From the NCBI RefSeq assembly GCF_022759005.1, contig NZ_JAEMQA010000062.1:1-32526 (forward strand): a DNA stretch of 32,526 nucleotides. The letters run 5' to 3'. A program made the position numbers and the translations under genes. The DNA is from Sulfuricurvum sp. Its GTDB lineage: Bacteria; Campylobacterota; Campylobacteria; Campylobacterales; Sulfurimonadaceae. Shown here one piece after another: positions 4,060 through 19,537 of this stretch; within the stretch, counting starts at the first letter, position 1, and each line of letters starts with the position of its first letter. Under the pieces are notes generated by a model. That model was not told the origin of the DNA. It did not search any database and saw only the letters and a program-made list of their open reading frames with translations.

Positions 4060-4066
4060 TTTGAAC

Positions 4067-4140
4067 GCGACAGGAGCAAAGCCCCTGTTGCTACGCTGGC
4101 CGCTAAGGCACTAAAGCTTGCCTCTTCGAGGCAGATTTTA
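4067..4140 (+). repeat. Structured 3'-UTR repeat element, copy 1
   Basis: 8-bp stem GCGACAGG/CCTGTTGC around loop AGCAAAGCC, then TACGCT, a GCC/GGC hairpin and TGCCTC-TTC-GAGGCA. The 47-nt core from TACGCT matches copy 2 at 44 positions. Confidence 0.8.
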
Positions 4141-4182: not shown

Positions 4183-4920
4183 ATGCAATACTCTTTTTTA
4201 GCCTCGTATCTACTCATCATCTTTGCCCTGTGGTATTCACGCCGTGAACACTTCGGTCTGGAAAAAACGATCCTCACCAACTCGATACTCGCAATGGTAC
4301 AGCTGGGAGTTCTGGGATACGCACTTGTCTATCTGTTCAAAATGGAGCATCCCGCACTCTTGTTTTTCGTTTTGCTGGGAATGGTAACGTTCGGAGCCTA
4401 TACGGCGCGTAAACGGACACCGCTGGGAGAGCAGAGTTTTAAAATCGCGTTTTATTCGATAGGGGCATCCTCTGCCATCGTTTTTTTATCGATGATGGCG
4501 TTTGGGGTGATTCATATGGTACCCCATGAGATGATCCCTATCGGGGGAATGATCATCGGAAATGCCCTCAACGTCTACACCCAAAGCACCGAACGGTTCC
4601 GCGCCGAGGTGAAAAATACGATCGAGACAATCGAGGGGATGGTGGCACTGGGGGCTCCGCTTAAAGAAGCGTTATCTTTTGCCTCCAAAGCCTCCGTCAA
4701 AGCCTCTATGATCCCCACACTCAACATGCTCCAAACAGTGGGAATCATCCATATCCCCGGCATCACGACGGGGATGCTCCTAGCCGGAGCCGATCCGCTC
4801 AAAGCGATATCCTATCAACTCGCCGTCATGTACATGATGGTCGCCGTCGCACTCCTCTCAGCCGTATTGAGCACCCTATTTTCCTATCGAGTGATTATCG
4901 GAGCGGCGTTTAAAAATTAA
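4183..4920 (+). CDS. fetB: FetB/UPF0014-family ABC permease
   Basis: Family-like sequence RKRTPLGEQSFKIAFY, IGGMIIGNALNVYTQSTERFRAEV, PTLNMLQTVGIIHIPGITTGMLLAGADP; multiple TM segments. Confidence 0.85.
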   Translation: MQYSFLASYLLIIFALWYSRREHFGLEKTILTNSILAMVQLGVLGYALVYLFKMEHPALLFFVLLGMVTFGAYTARKRTPLGEQSFKIAFYSIGASSAIVFLSMMAFGVIHMVPHEMIPIGGMIIGNALNVYTQSTERFRAEVKNTIETIEGMVALGAPLKEALSFASKASVKASMIPTLNMLQTVGIIHIPGITTGMLLAGADPLKAISYQLAVMYMMVAVALLSAVLSTLFSYRVIIGAAFKN

Positions 4921-4936
4921 GCGCACTAGTGCGCTT
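4919..4936. repeat. Perfect 18-bp palindrome AAGCGCACTAGTGCGCTT
   Basis: Self-complementary, starting in the fetB stop codon, between convergent genes. Possible terminator or binding site. Confidence 0.7.
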
Positions 4937-4985
4937 GGGCATTCCGCCGTGGACATTGTGCCCCCAGCGGGTAAAACACAACGTT

Positions 4986-5016
4986 AGCGTAGTCATCGGG
5001 GCTTTGCTTCGATGAC
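4986..5016 (-). repeat. Structured 3'-end hairpin, copy 3 (5' part of the element only)
   Basis: Minus strand GTCATCGA-AGCAAAGCC-CCGATGAC-TACGCT. Same loop as copy 1 and same TACGCT flank, with different but complementary arms. The helicase stop codon lies in the 3' arm. Confidence 0.65.
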
Positions 5017-6261
5017 ATACTCATTACTTCCCTCACTAAACCGTTTTGCCCTAGGGTGGACAAAGCAGAGTTTTTCCCATCCCCGATGCGGGCGGATCAG
5101 TATGACGCGATGCGCCGAAACAGAGCGTGATAATGCGACATAAAACTGTGACGGGGCGAAAATCTCGTTCGTCTCGATGACATAATCAGCCAGAGACATC
5201 CCCTGCGATTTATGGATCGTGATTGCAAATGCCAGTGTCAGGGGGAACTGACTAAGAGTAAGAAGTTTCTCTTCGATAGCAGGGCCCCCTTTTTCCACCC
5301 AACGCGTTTTTACCGTATCGACCCGCTCTACTTTGACATTTACCCCATCGGCTTTTTTCACCCAAATCAGGTCACTCTCAATGGAAGTTATCACTCCCCG
5401 TTCGCCGTTGTAGTAGTTCCAAGCATTGCGGGTAAAGAGAATCGGAGCACCCACTTTGAGGCTCAAAATAGGCTCAATACGGCTCTCGGTCATAAACCTC
5501 TCCACATCACGATCCTGCATTTTTTTATCGTGAATCGTGACATAGGTCTCCACCTCGATCATCTCCCCGTACAAATGCTCCAACTGGGAACGGTTATGAT
5601 TTTGAGCGCTGATATTTTTACCAAACAGCAGCGTCATCGTGCTCATATCTTCGGCCAGCGGTTTAATCAACGCCTCAAGAGCCTCGTGCGCCGCTTCATC
5701 GAGACGTGCATGACGCACTTTCTCCAATAGCTCCAGAAACTTCGCTTCATGGGTACGATATGACCCTTCCAAGTGGAGCGTCTCAAATCCAAGCCGCTCC
5801 CACGAGTGAGATTCAAACGCAAAGCAGATCGGCTCATTCCCGCGGGTTACAGGGGGGAGCTGCAAAAAATCTCCCACCACGATAACACGACCGCTAAATT
5901 CGGCTTGCAGCAATCGAAGCCGTATCATATCAAGCAGCGGCGCACCCACCATTGAAATCTCATCGATGACAATAATCTGCATAGAACGGATCAGTTTGAT
6001 GATTTTTTCGGCGGGCTCAAGCTTGCCATTTCTCTCCAGTTCCTCTTGGGAATTGGCGATCCCTAGATCAAAAAAACTGTGAAGCGTCTGCCCTCCGATC
6101 AGCGTTGCCGCCATCCCCGTCGAGGCGAGACGGGCTACCGATTTTCCCTTTTGTACCGCATCCTCGATCAGGGCACGGGTGAGGGTCGTTTTCCCTGATC
6201 CCGCCCCTCCGGTGATAAAGAGGTTGGAGGTTTCTAAAATAGAAAGTGCTTTTTCAATCAT
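4993..6261 (-). CDS. Pif1-like / RecD-like superfamily 1B helicase
   Basis: Walker A ITGGAGSGKTTL, Walker B IIVIDEISMV, 'VVGDFLQLPPV', and C-terminal 'AFAITIHKSQGMSL' and 'QFYVALSRS'. Confidence 0.92.
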   Translation of the reverse strand: MIEKALSILETSNLFITGGAGSGKTTLTRALIEDAVQKGKSVARLASTGMAATLIGGQTLHSFFDLGIANSQEELERNGKLEPAEKIIKLIRSMQIIVIDEISMVGAPLLDMIRLRLLQAEFSGRVIVVGDFLQLPPVTRGNEPICFAFESHSWERLGFETLHLEGSYRTHEAKFLELLEKVRHARLDEAAHEALEALIKPLAEDMSTMTLLFGKNISAQNHNRSQLEHLYGEMIEVETYVTIHDKKMQDRDVERFMTESRIEPILSLKVGAPILFTRNAWNYYNGERGVITSIESDLIWVKKADGVNVKVERVDTVKTRWVEKGGPAIEEKLLTLSQFPLTLAFAITIHKSQGMSLADYVIETNEIFAPSQFYVALSRSVSAHRVILIRPHRGWEKLCFVHPRAKRFSEGSNEYVIEAKPR

Positions 6262-9905: not shown

Positions 9906-9922
9906 CCCTATTATTTTTGGAC

Positions 9923-9999
9923 ACCAAAGGAATAAAATCCCTTTGGTTACGCTAGCCGCTATGGCACTAAAGCTTGCCTCTACGAGGCAGATTTATTCC
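9923..9999 (+). repeat. Structured 3'-UTR repeat element, copy 2
   Basis: 8-bp stem ACCAAAGG/CCTTTGGT around loop AATAAAATC, then TACGCT, a GCC/GGC hairpin and TGCCTC-TAC-GAGGCA. GGAATAAA/TTTATTCC also pair across the element. Confidence 0.8.
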
Positions 10000-10733
10000 A
10001 AAACTCGCCCGATACTGTAGCGCATATCCTCATCAAGGGTATCCATATTCGAGAGCATCCAGTTTAAATACCCTTTATCTGCTGCGGCTATTTCAACGAG
10101 AGTTTTACCTTTGTATTTCCCGAATTTGAGAGGTCTCGTGTAAAATACGGGGGTTTGGGTAAGCTCAACCATCTTATCGATCGGATTGGCTCCTTCAAAA
10201 CGCTCTTGCAATCTTTTTCGAAGTTCAGTGAGAAACAGCTTCAACACCAAAACATCTCCGATCGCATCATGCGCTCTCACCTCTATCCCAAGCGTGTCAG
10301 CTTCAGATTGTTCAACCTTGTACAATCCCAAGCGGTAGCGGAAATACTGCAATCGGTGTGAATCTTCATCATCAAAGAGGTGACGGGCACAGCGAAGGGT
10401 ATCGATAAGGCGCATTTGAGAGGTAAAATTCTCTTTGGCAAGCATCCCCAAATCAAATGGAGCATTATGAATAATCAATACATTATCAGGTGTATTGAGT
10501 TGACAAAGGGTTTGAAAAGCAGACGTATCAATACATGCAGGCAGTCCCTCAATCATCTCAGGAGTAATGCCGTGAACCTCCATAGCACCGTAGCTGATCG
10601 GAACAGGAGCACTGCACATCTCATTATAAACATCTACATTTTTCCCATCGAGAACCATGTAGCCTAGCTGAATGACACGATCCTCTTCTCCCGCTCCCGT
10701 CGTCTCCGTATCAAGGAGTATATACTTAGCCAT
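9993..10733 (-). CDS. DEDDh 3'-5' exonuclease (DNA polymerase III epsilon-like) with C-terminal DUF3820-like region
   Basis: ILLDTETTGAGEEDRVIQLG, 'IIHNAPFDLGML', 'RAHDAIGDVLVLKLFL', and C-terminal 'KFGKYKGKTLVEIAAADKGYLNWML'. Confidence 0.9.
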   Translation of the reverse strand: MAKYILLDTETTGAGEEDRVIQLGYMVLDGKNVDVYNEMCSAPVPISYGAMEVHGITPEMIEGLPACIDTSAFQTLCQLNTPDNVLIIHNAPFDLGMLAKENFTSQMRLIDTLRCARHLFDDEDSHRLQYFRYRLGLYKVEQSEADTLGIEVRAHDAIGDVLVLKLFLTELRKRLQERFEGANPIDKMVELTQTPVFYTRPLKFGKYKGKTLVEIAAADKGYLNWMLSNMDTLDEDMRYSIGRVLE

Positions 10734-11083
10734 TAATACTGATCGTCTTCATCGTCGAGATCAAACTCATCGTAGTCGTCCTCGTCTTCTTCCTCTTCAT
10801 CGTCATAGTACAAATCATCCTCTTCATCATCGCCTTCGCGCATTGAGGTAAGCTCTGTATACAGCTGTTCAGCCTCTTCTTCATCGATTTCGCCGCTATT
10901 GAGTTCTCCGAGAAGATCTTTGTATTCATCACGAAGCGCTTGCATATCTTCAAGCTGTGCACGTTCTTGGGGAGATGCATCATTTTGCGATGCAATGGAT
11001 TCAAAAATATCATCGATGTGTTCTTCCACATCTGGGATCAATTCATTTTGTATCAAATGTTTTAGTTGTGTAATATAGGCCAT
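10733..11083 (-). CDS. Hypothetical protein with extremely acidic C-terminal tail
   Basis: ORF with AAGGATATAAC upstream of the ATG at 11083. C-terminus DDEEDDLYYDDEEEEDEDDYDEFDLDDEDDQY. Confidence 0.75.
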   Translation of the reverse strand: MAYITQLKHLIQNELIPDVEEHIDDIFESIASQNDASPQERAQLEDMQALRDEYKDLLGELNSGEIDEEEAEQLYTELTSMREGDDEEDDLYYDDEEEEDEDDYDEFDLDDEDDQY

Positions 11084-11216
11084 GTTATATCCTTGCTGCG
11101 TGTGATTTGCATATCTCATTATACTTCAAAAATGTGACAATACCATACTAACAAAGCAGATGTTTTAAAAGAAGCAATAGAAGTTAAAAGGATGATTGTA
11201 AAAAAGGAAAAGGAAA

Positions 11217-19276: not shown

Positions 19277-19384
19277 AGATCACCTTGAAAAAATTTAATT
19301 AGCTTATCCAAACCGTCCAAACACGCTTTGGATCAGATAATAAAGCCCGGGCGGGCGTTTCGCAGTAGCTTCGGTTCTCAAAGC

Positions 19385-19537
19385 CGAAAAAAGCCGCTCG
19401 AGCGTCTTTTCCGGCGACAATCTCTCACGTAAAAAATACATTCAAACGAGACCACCGACACTCAAAGACGACTACGGCTGCGACTCCATGAATATGTAGA
19501 ACCCTCAAAATGCGATTAGTCGCTTCACCCAGAGAAT
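19385..19537 (-). ncRNA. ssrS: Candidate 6S RNA
   Basis: TATAAT at 19541-19546 (minus). Closing stem GCGACtAATC/GATTGTCGC extended by CTGG/CCGG across a bulge, large internal loop, distal stem TACAtaTTCA/TGAATGTA, then hairpin GCCGGAAAAGaCGC-TCGA-GCGgCTTTTTTCGGC. Directly upstream of purD. Confidence 0.6.

Follow-up and report, generated by a model that had tools for sequence, protein, structure and literature searches.

Among described systems, the repeat analysed here comes closest to the GTAG REP families, whose stems are described as carrying alternative, mutually complementary residues and many G-T pairs (Di Nocera 2013, PMC3733652). The GTAG REP superfamily has been reported in the epsilon division, and Sulfurovum NBC37-1 is reported to contain GTAG repeats (PMC3733652). 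We consider it about 70% probable that the element described below is a dispersed, mobile, REP-like (GTAG-hairpin) DNA repeat that is widespread in the Campylobacterales. The element is multi-copy and intergenic, and it is missing from orthologous sites in related genomes.

The window is the whole stretch of DNA that was analysed, 32,526 nucleotides of a Sulfuricurvum sp. contig (NZ_JAEMQA010000062.1). A sequence-only reading of this window had described three hairpins, each with a TACGCT flank, and all three were found where it had placed them, with the arms, loop and flank that it gave. A covariance model, R1, was built from 18 copies of the own genome, the three window copies included, and its E-values apply to the whole genome. 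At this level, the window contains exactly three copies, with the following features (window coordinates and strand).

4060..4140 (+): copy 1, a class A element of repeat family D2, whose GTAG strand is the minus strand; subject of the empty/filled site comparison
4064-4097 (-): R1 match of copy 1, E 2.6e-8
4067-4074/4084-4091 (-): arms of the GTAG hairpin of copy 1, with the inner pairs and a 3-nt loop between them
4092-4097 (+): TACGCT of copy 1
4092..4117 (-): conserved core of copy 1 between its two hairpins, reading CTTTAGTGCCTTAGCGGCCAGCGTA on the GTAG strand
4118..4134 (+): distal hairpin of copy 1, TTGCCTC-TTC-GAGGCAG, then ATTTT; terminator-like for the peroxiredoxin gene
4919..5019 (+): copy 3, a class B element, flanked by convergent UPF0014 and PIF1/AAA helicase genes
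4919..4936 (-): distal class B hairpin of copy 3, AAGCGCACTAGTGCGCTT, then AATTTTTAAA
4986-5019 (+): R1 match of copy 3, E 1.0e-6
4992..5016 (+): GTAG hairpin of copy 3, with TACGCT in sense on the minus strand
9916..9994 (+): copy 2, a class A element, whose convergent neighbours are a Sel1-repeat ORF and an exonuclease gene
9920-9953 (-): R1 match of copy 2, E 1.5e-7
9923-9930/9940-9947 (-): arms of the GTAG hairpin of copy 2, with GTAA as tag
9948-9953 (+): TACGCT of copy 2
9974..9990 (+): distal hairpin of copy 2, terminator-like

The element is about 75-115 nt long. Both classes share the hairpin and TACGCT and diverge beyond: class A (copies 1 and 2, which share 82% identity along 79 nt) continues with GCCGCTAnGGCACTAAAGC and terminates in the TTGCCTC/GAGGCAG hairpin, and class B (copy 3) continues with AACGCTGAGTT and contains further hairpins. 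Additional hairpin modules lie inside the element at loci L284, L290 (genome G199, of another family), L298 (G016) and L037 (own genome), and growth of the element by nested hairpin insertion is suggested. The stop codon of the helicase ORF (4993-4995, minus strand) falls inside the copy 3 hairpin, and this element appears to supply the last codons of the helicase gene. Elsewhere in the window, a purD RNA motif (RF01069) lies at 19345-19475 (minus strand; above the Rfam gathering score, E 1.1e-13), and a TCTTCATCG-rich low-complexity repeat (family D1) lies at 10743-10837 within the overlapping minus-strand ORFs 10726-11031 and 10733-11119, where it would encode an acidic stretch.

Read on its reverse strand, the element is AGCGTAG-hairpin-CGTT. 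The A.C mismatch that had been noted in copy 3 is real on the TACGCT strand; on the opposite strand, this break at the inner end of the stem is a G.T wobble, and most copies have a stem of 11 uninterrupted pairs there. Of the 18 own-genome copies, 15 fold better on the reverse strand, two fold equally well on both strands and one folds less well on the reverse strand. In an independent set of 118 distinct sequences, gathered by a pattern that excludes the stem, the GTAG strand is the more stable one in 93/109 copies, with 140 G.T against 9 A.C cells, counts that are not phylogenetically independent, as one wobble is ancestral. The tag, for which the GTAG REP superfamily also admits GYAG or GTRG, is GTAG in 15 of the 18 own-genome copies and GTAA or GCAG in the others. 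Its final base pairs with the 3' foot in 18/18, including one A-T replacement (in copy 2, the GTAA tag faces a compensating T on the opposite side of the first pair), which is unlike a free GTAG guide.

Pairing and covariation of the stem are far beyond chance in the own genome: across the 18 copies, 94.9% of the cells pair (74% in shuffles), both sides have changed at 9 of the 11 pairs, and the covariation score is 0.60, against 0.22 when shuffled and at most 0.17 when slid. The independent set gives the same picture, with a stem of at least 9 pairs in 89% of its sequences (4% of shuffles) and 73 different 8-nt arms. Its covariation alignment was fitted to the model, from loci not picked by stem, and has 97.2% of the stem cells paired and a score of 0.74 against at most 0.15 in slid controls; double changes occur in 189 cells, compared with 49 in shuffles. 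A second hairpin stands across the conserved core, with at least 7 pairs in 66% of the sequences (12% of shuffles); here too, the letters change and the pairing is kept, and a covarying hairpin is found at the position of the copy 1 distal hairpin in this set. Both hairpins are maintained by compensatory change. The proposal of selection on structure is therefore borne out, and the covariance-model search that was to check it yielded many further copies. The description as a conserved loop and flank with a free stem holds in that letters vary while pairing is kept; the arms are not entirely free, CCAAAGG being a common arm. The sequence-only reading erred in calling this design the opposite of ordinary REP repeats. 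Variable complementary stems with G-T pairs are already known from GTAG REPs (PMC3733652), so a freely varying stem does not separate the element from REPs.

The own genome (1.74 Mb) has 32 model matches at E<1, of which 30 reach an E-value of about 0.002 or lower, and BLAST with the copy 1 stretch finds 15 further matches in it (E<=1.5). All 37 genomes searched from the same genus carry the element, with 1-64 matches per genome and 7-64 in most congeners. It was found in 5 of the 22 genera of a first set of relatives and, across the order Campylobacterales, in 88/299 genomes and 19/81 genera, including Sulfuricurvum, Sulfurimonas and Sulfurospirillum; the core pattern of copy 1 is contained in at least 117 Campylobacterales contigs. 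BLAST against plasmids and phages gave no match to the element, and neither the window nor eight copy loci gave an Rfam 15 family match to it above threshold. In IMG/VR, the element is present on three contigs. Two of these are phage by gene content and carry it just upstream of structural genes, and the genes flanking it on the third (L249) look chromosomal. Copies at L250 (1291-1316) and L456 (5713-5733) lie within Mu-like and other tailed-phage structural gene clusters, so that phage can carry the element along.

Occupied and empty sites were compared among relatives. Behind the peroxiredoxin gene, the element is present in seven genomes of the genus, the own genome among them (class A in six, class B in one); about 20 congeners show a plain intrinsic terminator there, and one more has the distal half alone. 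The class A stems at this site vary from species to species and are still paired (GCGACAGG/CCTGTTGC, GCTACAGG/CCTGTAGC, GCTGAAGG/CCTTCGGC and GATTCAGG/CCTGAATC), which suggests, provided that the copies are true orthologues, that pairing is maintained and the element used after insertion as well. At the copy 3 site, the own genome and G017 both carry class B, G034 shows just a portion of the hairpin half, and most other congeners have an empty site. In G199, near-identical copies were found at 18 or more of 20 fetched loci, some in tandem, and at the three comparable loci the amplified copies are missing from the orthologous positions of relatives. Amplification has thus been recent in at least one genome, and the empty orthologous sites together with this burst point to dispersal beyond vertical descent alone. 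Tandem copies also occur at L147 (3337-3460) and L194 (4569-4705), at about 98 and 111 bp, and by eye the L147 array appears to run straight into RNase P RNA-like sequence.

The GTAG foot of the element pointed to a RAYT as candidate mobiliser. A classical RAYT-dependent REP family (TnpA-REP, Y1 HUH transposase), with the enzyme lost from many lineages, would account for the GTAG at the foot of an imperfect, short-loop hairpin as in the GTAG superfamily, and for intergenic copies in tail-to-tail or tandem pairs. RAYT-like genes do exist in the genus: about nine genomes (loci L119, L120, L121, L122, L124, L127, L128, L129 and L130) encode one protein family, about 177 aa long (MGRSRYKI..., ENHLHL motif), that scores near the Pfam cut-off. 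A GTAG-hairpin scan around these genes found no member of the present repeat family, and none of the Y1/RAYT genes examined has the element beside it within the fetched flanks. In the own genome, which is 93% complete, Y1_Tnp gave no match at E<=0.001, and it gave none in the copy-rich genomes G199, G024, G013, G035, G326, G226 and G194, several of them complete or near-complete, with a sensitivity limited by the near-cut-off scores of the genus RAYTs. Copy number does not track the presence of Y1, and the last G of the tag is base-paired. On this balance, we regard a RAYT-dependent family as a tentative, less probable account. One sub-threshold Y1 match in the own genome (C38:990-1130, E 0.0087) was rejected, as it belongs to an ORF just upstream of an ABC permease/ATPase pair and the genus RAYT protein gives no match there. 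The genes between close copy pairs, considered as candidate mobilisers, are housekeeping genes only. Replication-strand bias is weak (73 vs 50, in congeners that are not independent). The missing tie to a mobilising enzyme, the paired last tag base, this weak bias and the compensated stems at apparently orthologous sites also weigh against the reading as a dispersed REP-like repeat.

Two further forms of the idea can be entertained, with reservation. The element may be an order-wide hairpin element spread by an enzyme other than Y1/RAYT that reads structure plus a short core, or it may be a chromosomal DNA-structure element maintained by the host, with stems kept paired at fixed sites by selection.

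The sequence-only reading had seen the copies as elements in sense orientation at mRNA 3' ends, with a role as terminator, stability or sRNA element. A cis-acting 3'-UTR element of this kind, selected at gene 3' ends, would fit several observations. The distal hairpins in the window are GC-rich and directly followed by a T-run in gene sense, those of copies 1 and 2 ending in T-rich tails on the sense strand. Where congeners have an intrinsic terminator behind the peroxiredoxin gene, the own genome has the element, a replacement that supports a terminator role there, and stems at orthologous sites change and remain paired. On the TACGCT strand, copies 1-3 may plausibly act as terminators, but this is not a general property: a T-rich tail follows 45% of well-formed distal hairpins, against 28% in shuffles, and no T-run follows the R1 hairpin itself. 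Gene context was determined with simple ORF calls for 59 copies (30 from the own genome, 29 from relatives). Convergent genes flank 11 of these and apparently divergent genes one; two overlap a predicted ORF and one has an undefined edge. With a divergent context in 1/57 classifiable intergenic copies, two-promoter regions are avoided, which also fits a 3'-UTR element. Orientation relative to genes is random, without a rule. The 44 copies that lie between tandem genes comprise 21 in GTAG sense and 23 in TACGCT sense, and the gene ends facing the element divide into 35 TACGCT-sense and 32 GTAG-sense, which is the outcome that the reading had itself set against its claim in advance. Many copies inside tandem gene pairs lie a few bases ahead of the next gene, and the G.T wobbles preserve the GTAG strand, which is antisense for the window copies. 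The terminator-like distal part of copies 1-3 on the sense strand thus stands, a general sense 3'-end element does not, and we judge selection as an mRNA element improbable as an overall explanation.

It is similarly improbable that the element is a MITE derived from a DNA transposon with terminal inverted repeats. The G199 element does fit this description, being about 115 bp long and bounded by CCATTAAGTTAA...TTAACTTAATGG. By eye, neither the copies of the window genus nor class A showed terminal repeats, a transposon bearing such ends was not found, and no target-site duplication was established at the empty sites compared, which are too diverged. Integron attC sites, which AACTCAGCGTT resembles, were considered and provisionally rejected, as the consensus ends do not fit and the copies lie among housekeeping genes.

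Returning to the dispersed REP-like repeat, we propose that its active form would be single-stranded DNA of the strand 5'-[variable hairpin(s)]-conserved core-AGCGTA-[variable 11-bp hairpin]-CGTT-3'. The hairpins would be recognised by their structure together with the letters of the foot and core, and a trans-acting single-strand nuclease or transposase would copy the element into intergenic gaps at gene ends. After insertion, the host may use it, mainly as a substitute terminator on the TACGCT strand as at the peroxiredoxin gene, so that any role in mRNA would be secondary and orientation-dependent. The Campylobacterales thereby gain an abundant, measurable REP-like system across many genera, without an evident transposase, in which REP dispersal and the maintenance of stem pairing become testable outside the Gammaproteobacteria and in which one repeat insertion stands in for a host transcription terminator.

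Compared with known systems, the element resembles bacterial MITEs and ERIC-type palindromes in being a non-coding, folded, intergenic and non-autonomous sequence of about 100 bp. It has terminal inverted repeats, as MITEs do, in one lineage (G199), and it differs from MITEs in that these repeats are not general and a parental transposon was not found. With RAYT/TnpA-REP and the hairpin ends of IS200/IS605 (PMC6006769), it shares a single-strand hairpin with a short guide at the 5' foot; unlike in those systems, no Y1 transposase was detected in several copy-rich genomes and none is flanked by the element. Its copy number (7-64 in most congeners) is below the >100 of classical REPs. The element is REP-like and not a proven RAYT-REP, since the last G of its tag is the first base pair, its build is composite (the tag comes after a conserved core, about 26 nt long, and a second free-varying hairpin in class A or several hairpins in class B), and one family spans an order without a RAYT link. 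Like the GTAG-tagged REPs and the E. coli REP/BIME, it has a short hairpin whose 5' foot bears GTAG and whose stem shows G.T pairs and alternative complementary residues, and it is intergenic and multi-copy, occurring as singles and dimers.
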